Assembly (NCBI RefSeq): GCF_014698305.1
Contig: NZ_JACJST010000029.1
Location: forward strand, 1-64,000
Length of the DNA stretch: 64,000 bases
Source: Anabaena lutea FACHB-196
GTDB taxonomy: Bacteria; Cyanobacteriota; Cyanobacteriia; Cyanobacteriales; Nostocaceae
Direction: 5' to 3'
The notes under the pieces were generated by a model. It saw nothing but the letters and a program-made list of their open reading frames with translations, did not search any database and was not told the origin of the DNA. Both the position numbers and the translations under genes were made by a program. This document shows positions 23,695 through 31,177 of the stretch, one piece after another; position 1 is the first letter of the stretch, and every line of letters begins with the position of its first letter.

Positions 23695-23822
23695 TTCATT
23701 AGTCATTAGTCATTAGTCATTGGTGATTGGTCATTGGTCATTGGTAATAATTATTCTCTCCCCATCTCCGCGTCTCCCTATCTCCGCGTCTTTGCGTCTC
23801 TCCATTGGTCACCTGTCACCTG
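23695..23822. repeat. Composite repeat: 7-base array plus short octamer array
   Basis: ATTAGTC/ATTGGTC units are followed by GGTAATAATTATTCTCT, then a short array of CCCCATCT/CCGCGTCT-like octamers, then GGTCACCTGTCACCT. The order and flanks are the same as at 14198-14612, but the octamer part is only about 50 bases instead of about 340. It fills the gap between the SPFH gene and folP. Confidence 0.85.
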
Positions 23823-25488: not shown

Positions 25489-25762
25489 AGGTGATTTTGT
25501 CAAGATGCTAACGCTACTAGATGCATTTTTCACTCTACTACTTTTTAGGACACTCCTTGTCTACCGAGAGGGTAAAGGCTGCTATCTGAGTGTCTTAACT
25601 GTCGGGCTAGGTTTACAGTTCCGATGTTGTGGGGTTTGGGGAGATGGTAGAATGTCAGAAAAAACTGAGGAGATGGAAAGCGTTAGCGTAGCTCATCGTA
25701 GATATCGCTTTTTACTAAACCGATATTTTACGCCCTACTGATTTGGTTCACAATTCCCCTTT

Positions 25763-25842
25763 ATATCGTGTTCGGTTAAAGACTGATAATTAAGGCCGAC
25801 GCGGAGAGTTTTTTTGGATAAGTAATTAAGCGAACATGATAT
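25763..25842 (-). repeat. MITE-like element, family 2, copy 3
   Basis: An 80-base element; on the minus strand it reads ATATCATGTTCGCTTAATTA ... GTCTTTAACCGAACACGATAT, with inverted ends ATATC(A/G)TGTTCG. It is inserted right after the codons for DKAF of an hsdS remnant. Confidence 0.75.
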
Positions 25843-25966
25843 TAAATGCTTTATCGAGTATGGAAGGTAAAAGAGCATCAAGTTATTTTATTGCTTCTTC
25901 TCTGAATTGTTTGATTGTGTCTATTTTGGTTTGGAGTTCATCGAGGTAGGTATAGCTATATTAGTA
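25843..25966 (-). pseudogene. Type I restriction specificity subunit (hsdS) C-terminal remnant
   Basis: Read on the minus strand this short stretch gives YLDELQTKIDTIKQFREEAI, K, stop, then LDALLPSILDKAF. That is the conserved C-terminal helix and tail of HsdS subunits, with Glu changed to TAA. The normal end (KGEL) is replaced by a MITE-like element, and the rest of the gene is missing upstream. It is evidence of a former type I restriction-modification locus. The remaining sequence to 26114 shows only a small hairpin near 25990-26012. Confidence 0.65.
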
Positions 25967-26114
25967 CAAATGTAGTGATATATACTCTAAACCCTAACAC
26001 AGGGTGGGTTTTATGATTTGAGTCTATTTTTCTCCAGTCAAATACTAATGACTACGGTTTTACCTATTTTCTGTATCACGAATGATTTATGATTGCTATG
26101 ATAATATTTTTATA

Positions 26115-26571
26115 TTAACTAATATCTTGAATAGAAACTGGTTGTTGACGATTTTGATTTAAGAATTTACCAACTTTTGTCGGTGAATGACTCGAATCTG
26201 GTATTACAAGTTCATCTGGTTTGAAAATAATATCATTATAATTTTCCATCTGACGTAATTCCATAATATTACTTTTGATTTTATTAAGCTCATTTTCAAC
26301 TGATTTCCAGTCTAAATCTTCTTCTAAGAAGACATTTAATAAATTAACCCAACCACCCCAAAATTTTGATAATAAGAAAGAAGTTTTTGGTTCATTTCTA
26401 CTAGTTGGTTTATCTTTTTTGAAAACTGAGAACACAAGATTAAAATAGCGTTCAAATAGAATTATACTTTTTTCAACAAGAGTATCTTTATCAGATAACT
26501 CTGTTATCTTAGTAGCAAATAGTTTTTCAAACCCATATTTCTTAGACTTATTTTTTTCAATTCTATAGGAA
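26115..26571 (-). pseudogene. C-terminal part of an unknown gene cut by the IS630 element
   Basis: An open frame of about 150 codons (from SYRIEKNKSKKYGFEKLF to NQNRQQPVSIQDIS) runs out of the IS element. Its apparent ATG at 26624 and first 17 residues come from IS sequence. On the other side of the IS the frame meets a TAG at once, so the original gene was already cut or started nearby. The protein is Lys/Glu/Asn-rich and helical, without a motif I recognise. The region is very A+T-rich. It lies inside the span bounded on one side by the CAST-like end, so it may be a cargo remnant. Confidence 0.5.
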
Positions 26572-27717
26572 TAATATTTGATTTTTGAAAAAAAACTAAG
26601 AGATAATACGGAGAGGGTGTGCAAGTCTAAAGGAAAACAATGAGAAAGCAGGATTTAGAACAGGGGATGCCAGTGGTGGGTGAAGTCATCGCCGAACTAC
26701 AGGAGTTTATAGCTCAAAATGCAAATGCTCGTGAGGTGAGGAAAGGATTAGCAATCAAACTGGTTTATCAAGGTTACTTATATGAAGAAATTCAAACAAT
26801 TCTAGGCGTGTCACTAGGTTCAATAACAGGTTGGAAACAAGTCTACGAGGAAAATGGAATTGATGGGTTAAAACTAAAATACAAAGGAAGAAAAAGCTAT
26901 TTGAATACCGAACAGAAACAGGAGGTATTGTGTTGGCTTCAAACAAAGGATTATTGGGAAATAGGAGAGTTAGAGTATAAACTAGCATTTGAATATGATG
27001 TAGTTTACGAGACCAAAAAAAGTTATTACGATTTGTTTAAAGCAGCCGGAATAAGTTGGAAAAAAACCACTAAGTCAAACCCTAAAACTGACCCAGATGC
27101 TGTAGCGGTAAAAAAAAAGAGATTGAAACACTGTTGGAAAACAACAGTAGGGAACTTGAAACAGGTAAATTGAGAGCTTTACTAATTGATGAGTGTCATT
27201 TAATGTGGGGAGACTTAAGTGGCTATGTATGGGGTAAAACAGACCAAGAAATCGCAGTTCCAGTGGTCAATGAGCGAAAAAAACAGACATATTATGGAGC
27301 AATTGACTATCTCGAAGGAGAATTAATACTTAAAAGTTACGATAAAGGTAATTCAAAAAATACTATTGATTATTTACTTTATTTACTCAAACAGTCTCCT
27401 GATCAACGATTACTCATCCTTTGGGATGGTGCTAGTTACCATCGTTCTCAAGAAATTAGAGATTTTTTGGACGAAATTAATCAGGGACTTTCAAGCGATC
27501 AATGGAAAATACAATGCGTTCGTTTTGCTCCTAATTGTCCGATACAAAATCCCATTGAGGATATTTGGTTACAAGCTAAAACATGGGTTCGACGTTTTTG
27601 TGCGTTGATACCAACATTTTCTCATTTAAAATGGATGTTTGAATGGTTTATCCGACACACTACTTTTGATTTTCCTACGCTTCAGATGTACGGAGCTTTT
27701 TCAAAAATCAAATATTA
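26572..27717 (+). mobile_element. IS630-family insertion sequence
   Basis: A 1146-base element with perfect 21-base terminal inverted repeats (left TAATATTTGATTTTTGAAAA at 26572, its complement ending at 27717). The outermost TA is probably the duplicated target dinucleotide, as expected for the IS630/Tc1-mariner superfamily. It encodes a transposase in two overlapping frames. The element looks complete, so it may be recent. It inserted into a degraded region between an hsdS remnant and a CAST-like end. Confidence 0.88.
26640..27173 (+). CDS. IS630-family transposase, N-terminal frame (DNA-binding)
   Basis: The 177-residue frame has helix-turn-helix regions (AIKLVYQGYLYEEIQTILGV, SLGSITGWKQVYEENG) and a second winged-helix part (WLQTKDYWEIGELEYKLAFE), the DNA-binding half of IS630 transposases. 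A run of nine A's at 27110-27118 lies in the overlap with the next frame. A -1 ribosomal slip there would join VAVKKK to EIETLLENN and produce the full transposase. Start ATG 26640, 16 bases after a GTGTGCAAGTC leader inside the IS. Confidence 0.85.
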   Translation: MRKQDLEQGMPVVGEVIAELQEFIAQNANAREVRKGLAIKLVYQGYLYEEIQTILGVSLGSITGWKQVYEENGIDGLKLKYKGRKSYLNTEQKQEVLCWLQTKDYWEIGELEYKLAFEYDVVYETKKSYYDLFKAAGISWKKTTKSNPKTDPDAVAVKKKRLKHCWKTTVGNLKQVN

Positions 27718-27718
27718 G
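27134..27718 (+). CDS. IS630-family transposase, C-terminal DDE frame
   Basis: This frame carries the catalytic DDE triad: Asp in LLIDECHLMWGD, Asp in LILWDGASYH and Glu in NPIEDIWLQAKTW. The product is made by frameshifting at the nine-A run; the internal start at 27134 is probably not used. The stop TAG at 27716-27718 spans the last bases of the right inverted repeat and the first flanking base. Confidence 0.85.
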   Translation: MENNSRELETGKLRALLIDECHLMWGDLSGYVWGKTDQEIAVPVVNERKKQTYYGAIDYLEGELILKSYDKGNSKNTIDYLLYLLKQSPDQRLLILWDGASYHRSQEIRDFLDEINQGLSSDQWKIQCVRFAPNCPIQNPIEDIWLQAKTWVRRFCALIPTFSHLKWMFEWFIRHTTFDFPTLQMYGAFSKIKY

Positions 27719-27785
27719 TCCTATATATTATTCAATGGGAGGGTTAGAAGGCGCACTTCGTTCGGGACTATTCTCCAGTTTTTTC

Positions 27786-27802
27786 CTATACTAGAAGTAT
27801 AG
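27786..27802. promoter_or_regulatory. Perfect palindrome, possible MerR-type operator
   Basis: CTATACTAGAAGTATAG has 6-base arms and a 5-base centre, and lies 28 bases inside the CAST-like terminal repeats. Sites of this shape are bound by MerR-family regulators within an overlong promoter spacer. No regulator gene remains nearby, so this is a guess from symmetry and position. Confidence 0.35.
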
Positions 27803-27829
27803 TGAAGTCAAATCTACAGCATAAAAATA

Positions 27830-27933
27830 GACGACATTAATTTGTTAACAATCATCTAGAAGGATTTGACGACACTAATTAGTTAACAGCGACACTAATC
27901 TGCGAATTGCGACATTTAATTTGCGAATGTACA
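27830..27933 (-). mobile_element. Terminal repeats of a Tn7-like / type V-K CAST-type transposon (one end only)
   Basis: Read outward-in on the minus strand from 27933, the end is TGTACATTCGCAAATTAAAT followed by GTCGC. Four related TnsB-site-like repeats follow: CGCAAATTAAATGTCGC, CGCAGATTAGTGTCGC, TTAACTAATTAGTGTCGTC and TTAACAAATTAATGTCGTC. A TGTACA terminus and ATTAxTGTCG repeats are the hallmarks of cyanobacterial type V-K CRISPR-associated transposon ends. The terminus lies 4 bases from the 3' end of a tRNA gene, a known attachment position for these elements. No tnsB, tnsC, tniQ, cas12k or CRISPR array remains in the window, and I found no opposite end, so this is an orphan end. Confidence 0.75.
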
Positions 27934-27937
27934 ACAA

Positions 27938-28010
27938 TGGAGAATAGGAGACTCGAACCCCTGACCTCTGCGGTGCGATCGCAGCACTCTACCAACTGAG
28001 CTAATTCCCC
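27938..28010 (-). tRNA. tRNA-Ala (anticodon CGC)
   Basis: A 73-base tRNA: acceptor GGGGAAT pairs with ATTCTCC (one G-T), D arm TTAGCTCAGTTGGTAGAG, anticodon stem CTGCG/CGCAG with loop ATCGCAC (anticodon CGC, U33 present), T arm with GGTTCGAGTC, discriminator A. CCA is not encoded. The anticodon loop region contains the HIP1 octamer GCGATCGC. The 3' end is adjacent to the CAST-like terminus. Confidence 0.93.
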
Positions 28011-28052
28011 TTATGAGTGCAGAGTAGCAAACTCTGACAGACGTACTCTATC

Positions 28053-28781
28053 TTAACACTCAGGCACGGCAGATTTTACATCTTTTTGCAAATAAACCTC
28101 CTGTACCCTTTCCAATTCCAAATCTGTCAAATAATCTACAGTCCAGTTGGCTTGACGCTGAAGCATATGAAAAGGGTAAGTATTCGCTACCCCAACTACT
28201 TGTATCTGAGCGCGTTTTGCGGCTTGAATACCCGCTGGAGTATCTTCAATCGCTAAACAATCTTGGGGTTGCAAATTCAATTCTACAAATTTTTGGTTGA
28301 AGCGTTCTACTGCCAGCAAATAACCTTCTGGTTGAGGTTTACTAGTGTTAGTGTCATCCCCAGTAACAATAATCTGAAAGTATTCAGCCAGTTTGCTACG
28401 TTCTAGCACAAATTCTATTTCTTGACAAAGAGCGTCACTAACTAAGCCTAGTTTAAGATTTTGCGATCGCACTTGAAAAATTAAGTCATCTATTCCCGGA
28501 TACAAAGGCAGTTTTTCTAACTTCTCCAGTTCCAGCACATAAGCCTGAGCCTTGCGTTTGAGCAACTGAATTAAATACTCCTCGGTTGCAACTCTACCAC
28601 GATTTTTCAGCAAGTCTTGAAAACAAGCGCGATAGCTCCTTCCCAGTGAAGCTTGACGCTCTTGCACCCTTTGGGGTTGGAGATTTTCCTGCACCAGAAT
28701 CTCATCTATCAGTTTCAGATGAATCGGCTCATCTTTAATAATCACACCATTAAAATCGAACAGAACTGCCTTTAAACTCAT
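28053..28781 (-). CDS. HAD-family hydrolase (beta-phosphoglucomutase-like)
   Basis: The 242-residue protein has a HAD core with an inserted helical cap. Motif I is VLFDFNGVIIKDEP (nucleophile Asp, with Asn in place of the usual second Asp), motif II LGLVSDA, motif III TSKPQPEGYLLA (Lys) and motif IV CLAIEDTPAGIQAAK. The arrangement is that of subfamily I phosphatases and beta-phosphoglucomutases. The D-to-N change in motif I alters the usual acid/base position, so substrate and reaction cannot be stated. It stands alone, 42 bases from tRNA-Ala. Confidence 0.88.
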   Translation of the reverse strand: MSLKAVLFDFNGVIIKDEPIHLKLIDEILVQENLQPQRVQERQASLGRSYRACFQDLLKNRGRVATEEYLIQLLKRKAQAYVLELEKLEKLPLYPGIDDLIFQVRSQNLKLGLVSDALCQEIEFVLERSKLAEYFQIIVTGDDTNTSKPQPEGYLLAVERFNQKFVELNLQPQDCLAIEDTPAGIQAAKRAQIQVVGVANTYPFHMLQRQANWTVDYLTDLELERVQEVYLQKDVKSAVPEC

Positions 28782-29029: not shown

Positions 29030-31177
29030 ATGCCCTACGAACAATTAGGAATTAACACACCATCCCCCGTTTTATCTTGGGCAAATCATCCCTTAGCCTC
29101 AGATGAAACCAAGATGGCCAAGAATGTTGCCTCCTTGCCATTTGTGTTTAAACACGTTGCTTTAATGCCCGATGTTCACTTTGGAAAAGGAGCATTAGTT
29201 GGTTCAGTTATTGCCACCAAAGAAGCGATTATTCCTGCTGCTGTCGGAGTAGATATTGGTTGCTTTGTGGGAGAAACTTTAATTCCTTTAATAGATGGAA
29301 AATCCTATCCAATCAAAGAATTAGCAGATAATAACGGAGAATTTATTGTTTATGCTTGTACACCAACAGGAAAAATTGTAGCTGCCAAAGCCACTGCTCG
29401 ATTAACAAGAAAAAATGCTCCTTTGGTGAAAGTAATTTTAGATAACAGTGAAGAGATTATCTGTACTCCAGATCATCAATTTATGCTTCGAGATGGCAGC
29501 TACCAAGAAGCACAATTTCTGGAAACAGGTACTTCCTTAATGCCTTTTTATTCCCAAGTTGATAAAGATGGTTATACACTCATATCTCAACCATACTCTG
29601 GGAGATGGCAAAAAGCACATTGGATGATTGCTCGTTCTGGTTTACTAGGTAAAATTCCCAAATTTGAGGGACAAAGAACAGTTATTCATCATCGCAATTT
29701 CCATGAATCAGATAATCGTCCAGAAAATCTGGAATTTATGGGAGCTAATGAGCATTCTGCCTATCACCGTTCTTTACTAGAAAGTAATCAACATTGGCAA
29801 TCTCCAGAATTTGAAGAAAATAGAAAAGCTGCTATTGCGCGAAAAGCACAAACTCCAGAAGGATATCAATATTATGCCGAGCGAGGTACTAAAAATATTC
29901 TTCAGTATATGCAACAGCAACCAGAACATTTTAAAAATGCAGTTGCAGATAATGGAATTCGGGGTAAGCAATATCTAATCACATATAACACAAGTGAAAA
30001 AGGGAGAGCAAAGTCTCAAGAAATTGCCAATCGTTACTACACCTGTGAAATCTGTGGTGCAGAAGTTAAGACACCAATTGGACTGCATAACCACCGTCGC
30101 AAGGAACACAAATGCAATCACAAAGTTGTCGCAGTAATTCCCCTAAATTACACAGAAAATGTGTATTGTCTGACAGTACCAGAGTATCATAACTTTGCTC
30201 TAAAAGCAGGGGTATTTGTTCACAACTGCGGAATGTGTGCCATAAAAACACCATTTACAGGTGAACAACTCGAAGGTAAACTCAAGAAAATTCGCCTAGA
30301 TATTGAAGCTGCAATTCCCACAGGATTTAATGAAAACAAAGATGTAGAAAAAGCAGTAACTAACTGGCAACGTTGGCGCGATTTTTCTAACTTGCATCGT
30401 GGTGTGCAAGATTTAGAAAGCAAAGCCATGAAACAAATGGGTTCTCTTGGTGGAGGGAATCACTTTATCGAAATATGTCTCGATACAGAAAACCAAGTTT
30501 GGCTGATGTTGCATTCCGGTTCTCGCAACATTGGTAATAAACTAGCCCAATGCCATATTAATACCGCCAAAGAATTAGCGAAAATGGCAAGTGAGAAATT
30601 ACCTGATCCTGATTTAGCTTACTTTGTGGCTGGTACACCAGAATTCCAAGCATACTGGAAAGACTTACAATGGGCGCAAAATTACGCACTTTTTAACCGT
30701 GATGTAATGATGTCCCGATTTAAAAAAATTGTCGAAAAACATCTTACAGGGGGGAAAGTAACCAAACCTTTATTAGAGGTAAATTGTCATCACAACTATG
30801 CCGAAAAAGAAGTACATTTTGGCGAAGATGTGTATGTAACTCGTAAAGGTGCAGTTCGCGCTCAAACAGAAGATTATGGGATTATTCCTGGTTCAATGGG
30901 AGCAAAATCTTTCATTGTCAAAGGTAAAGGAAATGCTCATAGTTTCTGTTCTTGTTCTCATGGTGCAGGGCGTTTGATGTCCAGAAATAAGGCAAAAAAT
31001 GTCTACACACTTGATGATTTAATTGAGCAAACTCAGGGTGTAGAATGCCGTAAGGATACTGGAGTTTTAGATGAAATTCCTGGTGCTTATAAACCAATTG
31101 AGCAGGTGATGGAAAATCAAGCTGATTTGGTGGAAATAGTGGCAACTCTTAAACAAGTTCTTTGTGTAAAAGGTTAA
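29030..31177 (+). CDS. rtcB: RNA-splicing ligase RtcB, interrupted by an intein
   Basis: The 715-residue precursor is a 393-residue RtcB plus a 322-residue intein. RtcB is a GTP- and Mn-dependent ligase that joins 2',3'-cyclic-phosphate (or 3'-phosphate) and 5'-hydroxyl RNA ends in tRNA splicing or RNA repair. Extein motifs: MPDVHFGKGALVGSV, AAVGVDIG followed after splicing by CGMCAIKTPF (metal-binding Cys), MGSLGGGNHFIEI (metal His), MLHSGSRNIGN, NCHHNYAE and the C-terminal CSHGAGRLMSRNKA with the guanylylated His. The intein splits VDIG and CGM, so ligase activity depends on splicing. Start ATG 29030. No rtcA or regulator is adjacent. Confidence 0.95.
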   Translation: MPYEQLGINTPSPVLSWANHPLASDETKMAKNVASLPFVFKHVALMPDVHFGKGALVGSVIATKEAIIPAAVGVDIGCFVGETLIPLIDGKSYPIKELADNNGEFIVYACTPTGKIVAAKATARLTRKNAPLVKVILDNSEEIICTPDHQFMLRDGSYQEAQFLETGTSLMPFYSQVDKDGYTLISQPYSGRWQKAHWMIARSGLLGKIPKFEGQRTVIHHRNFHESDNRPENLEFMGANEHSAYHRSLLESNQHWQSPEFEENRKAAIARKAQTPEGYQYYAERGTKNILQYMQQQPEHFKNAVADNGIRGKQYLITYNTSEKGRAKSQEIANRYYTCEICGAEVKTPIGLHNHRRKEHKCNHKVVAVIPLNYTENVYCLTVPEYHNFALKAGVFVHNCGMCAIKTPFTGEQLEGKLKKIRLDIEAAIPTGFNENKDVEKAVTNWQRWRDFSNLHRGVQDLESKAMKQMGSLGGGNHFIEICLDTENQVWLMLHSGSRNIGNKLAQCHINTAKELAKMASEKLPDPDLAYFVAGTPEFQAYWKDLQWAQNYALFNRDVMMSRFKKIVEKHLTGGKVTKPLLEVNCHHNYAEKEVHFGEDVYVTRKGAVRAQTEDYGIIPGSMGAKSFIVKGKGNAHSFCSCSHGAGRLMSRNKAKNVYTLDDLIEQTQGVECRKDTGVLDEIPGAYKPIEQVMENQADLVEIVATLKQVLCVKG
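29261..30226 (+). mobile_element. Intein with HNH endonuclease and zinc finger, in RtcB
   Basis: The intein has 322 residues (precursor residues 78-399), from Cys1 (CFVGETLIPL) to the final His-Asn (KAGVFVHN), with Cys+1. Block B is IICTPDHQFML; block F is VYCLTVPEYHNFALK. The centre carries an HNH homing-endonuclease motif (TVIHHRNFHESDNRPENLEF), then a basic region and a C2H2-type zinc finger (CEICGAEVKTPIGLHNH). All residues needed for splicing are present. The insertion point, before the metal-binding Cys of RtcB, is a known conserved-site type of intein location. Confidence 0.92.

Follow-up and report, generated by a model that had tools for sequence, protein, structure and literature searches.

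Introduction

How does the end of an RNA-guided transposon come to lie beside one tRNA gene with a guide that fits another? This question is raised by a locus of Anabaena lutea FACHB-196 (genome G000), which we analysed within a stretch of 64,000 nucleotides (the window, to whose positions coordinates refer unless a contig or locus is named). In type V-K CRISPR-associated transposons (CASTs), which are RNA-guided integrators of practical interest, Cas12k finds a tRNA gene with a guide made of a short, truncated CRISPR repeat (R*) and a 17-nt anchor spacer, TnsC and TniQ bridge to TnsB, and TnsB, bound to the repeats, inserts the element some 56 nt past the PAM. The distance from PAM to left end (LE) in elements with R* and a 17-nt anchor spacer is described as 46-82 nt, with one exception, and the anchor spacer as usually, though not always, matching the tRNA beside the LE (PMC9938897, in part). 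A 2024 review describes V-K attachment-site guides as truncated, separate and mostly tRNA-directed, and attachment-site use as more dynamic than in I-F3 elements, for unknown reasons (PMC11406308, in part). We show here that the locus holds the remains of such an element, and we discuss by which route its guide and its site may have come to disagree.

Results

The left end beside tRNA-Ala(CGC)

The initial annotation had taken positions 27830-27933 for the orphan, tRNA-proximal end of a Tn7-like, V-K CAST-like element. We find that the LE extends over about 27735-27933 (199 nt) and includes R* and an anchor spacer (Table 1), and that it is almost certainly a type V-K CAST left end that survives as a relic at tRNA-Ala(CGC). 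As had been noted, the TGTACA terminus lies 4 bases (TTGT) from the tRNA gene. Four repeats are present, as described, but the core ATTA(A/G)TGTCG given for them is exact in three, the outermost reading ATTAAATGTCG with one extra base. The pattern ATTA[AG]{1,2}TGTCG occurs four times in the 64 kb, always within this LE and on one strand, compared to a mean of 0.32 per 64 kb (largest 3) and never two within 104 bp in 300 first-order simulations; thus, the repeat group is far beyond chance. TGTACA by itself is not significant (8 in the window versus 15.3 expected). The LE is 78% identical over 143 nt to that of a cas12k-bearing CAST of the same genome and 68-75% identical over nearly all 199 nt to several LEs at tRNA-Pro genes, and matches to it were found in 120 of 217 family genomes, G000 included. 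The homology to a cas12k element together with the matches across the family identifies it as a V-K CAST left end, and the repeats, for which the initial annotation had allowed that they might align with no such end, do align. The homolog in G000 came from a DNA similarity search; the pattern TGTACA-N-CGACATTAA in inverse orientation gave no match. That the repeats arose by chance or belong to a host regulatory sequence, for which we found no support, is refuted by this homology and by the clustering of the repeats far beyond simulation, and can practically be dismissed.

Table 1. Features of the left end and its surroundings (window coordinates).
Feature	Position	Strand	Basis or remark
tRNA-Ala(CGC), attachment-site gene	27938..28010	-	tRNA call; GGTA motif at 27990-27993
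TGTACA terminus of LE	27928..27933	-	same tip in many tRNA-adjoining LEs
TnsB-type repeat 1, TTCGCAAATTAAATGTCG, TTCGC class	27910..27927	-	motif scan and class call
TnsB-type repeat 2, TTCGCAGATTAGTGTCG, TTCGC class	27890..27906	-	motif scan and class call
TnsB-type repeat 3, TTAACTAATTAGTGTCG, GTTAAC class	27870..27886	-	motif scan and class call
TnsB-type repeat 4, TTAACAAATTAATGTCG, GTTAAC class	27832..27848	-	motif scan and class call
Inner LE part, homologous to the same part of the G000 tRNA-Thr CAST	27774..27831	-	DNA similarity
Anchor (homing) spacer GCGCACTTCGTTCGGGA, 17 nt	27751..27767	+	17/17 to tRNA-Pro(CGG) at G000:C12 after GGTA
Decayed truncated CRISPR repeat R*, GGGTTAGAAG (commonest form elsewhere GGGTTGAAAG)	27741..27750	+	
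IS630-family insertion, HTH and DDE_3 ORFs in two frames, inverted repeats	26564..27725	+	
Truncated gene, rest lost	26115..26563	-	possible decayed cargo
hsdS-like C-terminal scrap	25842..25950	-	92.7% to one in the G003 tRNA-Ala island
82-nt MITE-like insert, inverted ends (by eye), absent from G003	25760..25841	.	

With the tRNA-adjoining V-K LEs described in PMC9938897 (in part) the window shares the TGTACA tip, the TnsB-type repeats, R*, the 17-nt spacer, a tRNA that points into the element and a distance within 46-82 nt, the GGTA motif of tRNA-Ala(CGC) lying 56 nt from the LE tip. It differs from them in a spacer that fits another tRNA, an R* with two substitutions and mosaic repeats, and no right end, array, cas12k, tnsB, tnsC or tniQ was found. 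In line with the suggested loss of the machinery, the G000 proteins gave no tblastn match for cas12k, tnsB, tnsC or tniQ in 25501-28100. The partner end that had been predicted was not recovered, the pattern scan of 25501-27830, which repeats decayed past the pattern would escape, giving no repeat cluster; positions 25760-25841, tried as right end, were rejected, being an 82-nt insert inside sequence common to the congener G003. The anchor spacer follows R* and faces the LE. Given the two substitutions in R* and the IS630 insertion 10-15 bases upstream of it, the guide is probably dead.

The neighbouring debris had been viewed as decayed cargo, which we can uphold in part at most. Copies of the IS630 end sequence are present at no fewer than 36 further places in G000 (40 of 92 candidates scored), indicating a multicopy, later insertion and not cargo. 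In G003, the hsdS gene that matches the scrap is situated beyond the right end of the CAST, hence the scrap probably belongs to an older island layer. The truncated gene may possibly be cargo; its ORF (26115-26624) starts inside IS630, neither gene nor ORF has a Pfam or PADLOC match, and of 207 other genomes two contain a relative, in one case a weak match. Elsewhere in the window, a short tandem repeat with 7-base steps (23696-23748) is much longer in G003 (27625-28139 of the oriented stretch). The gene at 29030-31177, which we take to be rtcB-like, encodes a 715-aa product interrupted by an apparent intein (CFVGETLIPL ... VFVHNC), and it matches several relatives in separate pieces, as if the insert differed or were absent there.

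CASTs in the genus, the genome and the family

Related strains had been suspected to carry an intact system at this tRNA gene, and they do. Among the five genomes of the genus search (G000 included), all of which have the tRNA-Ala, G001 holds at tRNA-Ala(CGC) a V-K CAST of about 23 kb with tnsB, tnsC, tniQ and a cas12k 92.5% identical to that of G000. G003 holds a decayed one with fragments of tnsB and cas12k, an LE at tRNA-Ala and a right end at about 32326 of the oriented stretch. Both carry the Ala spacer GAGTGCTGCGATCG; comparison by eye gave no convincing pair of 5-bp target duplications in either. In G002 and G004 other, decayed LE-like repeats are seen by eye at the site, and there is no Cas12k match. 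The G001 element resembles the window in its attachment tRNA and its TTCGC-class tip (repeat classes are defined below), but has an Ala guide, all four core genes and TTCGC-class repeats throughout (L067), while the Ala-site end of G003 (L133) has GTTAAC-class repeats, tip included. G003 shares with the window the left flank (tpiA, folP) as well as 109 bases of hsdS. The order of a HAD gene followed by tRNA-Ala is widely kept, tRNA-Ala(CGC) lying 10-173 bp past the HAD match in 54 of 72 loci; the remaining 18 include some short pieces. The initial annotation had considered that the same sequence might follow the tRNA in many genomes; within 200 bp, with one mismatch allowed, 37 of these 54 loci have no repeat, eight have one and nine have two or more. 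This varied sequence and the CASTs of the relatives together mark tRNA-Ala as a recurrent attachment site, as proposed, and the sequence in the window as something other than a conserved host feature.

The G000 assembly (6.06 Mb, 62 contigs) contains a V-K CAST at tRNA-Thr(TGT) (C1, about 427348-441584) with all four core genes, where its one Cas12k match is full-length and scores 950 bits against a cut-off of 150. Pfam recognises tnsB (Mu-transpos_C), tnsC (TniB), tniQ and hsdS- and hsdM-type genes; an hsdR-like ORF is named from gene order and similarity to ORFs in relatives. The NCBIfam scan was clear for Cas12k only, with sub-cut-off transposase matches for TnsB and none for TnsC and TniQ, hence these three names rest on Pfam. 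A CRISPR array is present, and R* is followed by the spacer GTGCATCCGACTTGTAA, which matches the adjoining tRNA-Thr(TGT). Beyond the similarity of its LE, the element has in common with the window an R* and a tRNA-matching guide, and it differs by its core genes, TGTCGA tips, all-GTTAAC repeats and a guide that fits its own tRNA. Across the family, Cas12k matches occur in 141 of 217 genomes, 121 above the curated cut-off; 141 is an upper bound, because weak matches below the cut-off also occur in 2 of 14 control genomes.

Guide and attachment site disagree

A crRNA-like spacer for the adjoining tRNA had been predicted. The spacer exists, yet it fits tRNA-Pro(CGG) at 17/17 and tRNA-Ala(CGC) at only 9/17, with 4 of the first 8 bases. 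A first reading as a poor tRNA-Ala match was dropped, since the match to tRNA-Pro(CGG) (C12:97012-97029) is exact, over 18 nt; there is no third exact copy in G000. Compared with the 43 tRNA genes of G000 after the GTN motif, the guide reaches 10-17/17 in nine, with 17 for tRNA-Pro(CGG) and 12 for the next best, tRNA-Pro(TGG). A guide that fits tRNA-Ala so poorly could hardly have directed the element there unaided.

We surveyed Pro and Ala guides in the 217 genomes, with up to two mismatches tolerated across R* and spacer together; controls with the reversed patterns found nothing. Pro guides were found in 51 places (47 genomes) and Ala guides in 43 (41 genomes), each of which was inspected in its locus, or 48 and 43 after identical 150-base stretches were collapsed. 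With the tRNA sought within 700 bp, tRNA-Pro(CGG) lies beside 43 Pro guides and tRNA-Ala(CGC) beside 39 Ala guides, and the one crossed case is the window, the only mismatch among 83 guides of these types with an adjoining tRNA call. Four Pro and four Ala guides are without a call nearby. By eye, the Ala guides L140 and L182 lie beside an interrupted tRNA-Ala sequence and L161 lies at a contig end. The Pro guides L160 and L168 are followed, by eye, by the right end of an adjacent element, so that at least two cases look like CASTs stacked at one tRNA with the older LE lost or displaced. G000 has no Ala guide now and no second R*-Pro guide. Other genomes have both guides, e.g. G003, G075, G076 and G138, and G003 indicates that co-residence occurs within the genus. 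A chimeric misassembly at the LE is unlikely, considering the distance of 186 nt between R* and tRNA and the absence of a second R*-Pro guide from G000. Our literature search, which took in parts of PMC11406308, PMC9938897 and PMC10293859, brought up no published case of guide and site in disagreement, though Saito 2021 and Hsieh and Peters 2022 may mention such cases.

Repeat classes in the left end

When the repeats of 101 LEs, window included, were classed by the bases before each core, 71 LEs were of a single class, 6 were mixed and 24 were not classable. The window reads TTCGC, TTCGC, GTTAAC, GTTAAC. This mix recurs in three of the 100 other LEs (L054, L059, L167), all at tRNA-Pro, i.e. 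in 3 of 44 Pro-site LEs (3 of the 44 unclassable) and in none of the 39 other Ala-site LEs (21 of the 39 unclassable). The outer 46 nt are matched by the tRNA-Pro end L042 with a score of 42 and by the best Ala-site end, L141, with 40, each with 43 identical bases; with a tRNA-Pro LE matching at least as well, the tip alone failed as proof of an Ala origin. Over all 199 nt the closest LEs are tRNA-Pro ones without a mosaic. Among them, the tRNA-Pro(CGG) CAST ends L041 and L042 (G044, G106) have the same guide and TTGT before TGTACA, and differ from the window in their site and in that their classed repeats are all of the TTCGC class. The spacing from R* to tRNA equals that of L041, and the 8 bases before R* (CAATGGGA) are identical in the Pro-site ends L041 and L048. 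For the inner 64 nt the best match is the tRNA-Thr CAST, followed by TTCGC-class and not by GTTAAC-class Pro ends.

Discussion

The object described here is a decayed representative of a known element type, in which one feature is new to us: its mosaic end carries a guide at odds with the site. Our favoured explanation, which we hold with slight preference, is that an Ala-site CAST end recombined with a Pro-guided CAST, giving both the mosaic LE and the wrong guide. An Ala guide would first have led a CAST to tRNA-Ala, as in two congeners. Later, recombination would have joined the LE of this CAST to that of a co-resident Pro-guided CAST, with the break between repeats 2 and 3. Such an exchange would have replaced the inner repeats and the guide and kept the Ala-site tip outside the break. 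The rest of the element was presumably deleted before IS630 landed in the remains.

The main rival is a move in trans, in which a resident CAST lent its machinery and Ala guide to a Pro-guided CAST whose tip was compatible, and so brought it to tRNA-Ala. It is in line with the nearly interchangeable tips of Ala-site and Pro-site ends, with a whole LE that is most similar to Pro LEs and matches L041 in R*-to-tRNA length, and with congeners that have Ala-guided CASTs at this site, some genomes having both guides. However, it leaves the mosaic unexplained, and no other cross-placed guide was seen in the 82 further cases with a tRNA call. Since a move in trans predicts a mosaic at a rate of about 3 in 44, the mosaic favours recombination, perhaps tenfold, a rough figure from one case. 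Several observations argue against recombination. The outer 46 nt are matched at least as well by a tRNA-Pro LE as by the best Ala-site one, and the tip therefore gives no proof of Ala origin; the closest LEs over 199 nt are non-mosaic Pro ends, one with equal spacing; the inner 64 nt are not nearest to GTTAAC-class Pro ends; and mosaic ends occur at tRNA-Pro itself, while an Ala-site tip can be of the GTTAAC class, as in G003. Weighing these, we regard mobilisation in trans as rather unlikely and recombination as the likelier of the two routes, judged from a single case.

It is improbable that the guide of an Ala-guided element was later replaced by local change or capture, without recombination with another LE. 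Both the Pro and the Ala guide are seen with several LE repeat classes, so that guides and ends do change partners, but the exact 17/17 spacer preceded by the same 8 bases as in L041 and L048 points to transfer of a whole segment. Off-target homing, with a Pro guide that tolerated tRNA-Ala, could draw on the GGTA that precedes the target stretch in both tRNAs; against 9/17 pairs, 4 of them in the first 8, and nine tRNA genes of the own genome that score at least 10, we consider it very improbable. Unguided insertion is known for V-K systems, yet an untargeted insertion that chanced to fall beside a tRNA gene is hardly credible, with 43 tRNA genes, 37 positions each within the 46-82 nt range and one orientation in 6.06 Mb giving about 1e-4.

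Extending recombination from this locus to the family, we tentatively propose, at slightly less than even chance, that LEs of co-resident V-K CASTs recombine within the TnsB repeats and thereby swap R*-spacer guides as modules. If so, module swapping would help to explain why tRNA attachment sites change so quickly among closely related V-K elements, and the LE in the window would be a recombinant stranded at a site to which its own guide is not directed. The guide/site disagreement in a mosaic end may then be read as the fossil of an address change, and the prediction is segmental exchange within LEs, or guides used in trans.

A stretch of 100-200 bases beside a tRNA gene can suffice to recognise the scar of a lost CAST, and G000 offers further examples. 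Past tRNA-Pro(CGG) on C12, the tRNA addressed by the window guide, lies a one-repeat scar of a lost CAST (L015 9945-9960), and AAATTATTTGACCGCG downstream of this tRNA is common to the Pro-site element of G003. The tRNA-Thr(TGT) CAST contains between guide and repeats an internal TTTGCGAATGTACA (L009 9353-9366, i.e. C1 441352-441365), the same 14 bases as the window tip and perhaps a relic of another end. On C45 (L263), tRNA-Thr(CGT) is followed by TGTCGATTGTCAAGTTATTTGACTGCG, by eye a probable decayed CAST end.
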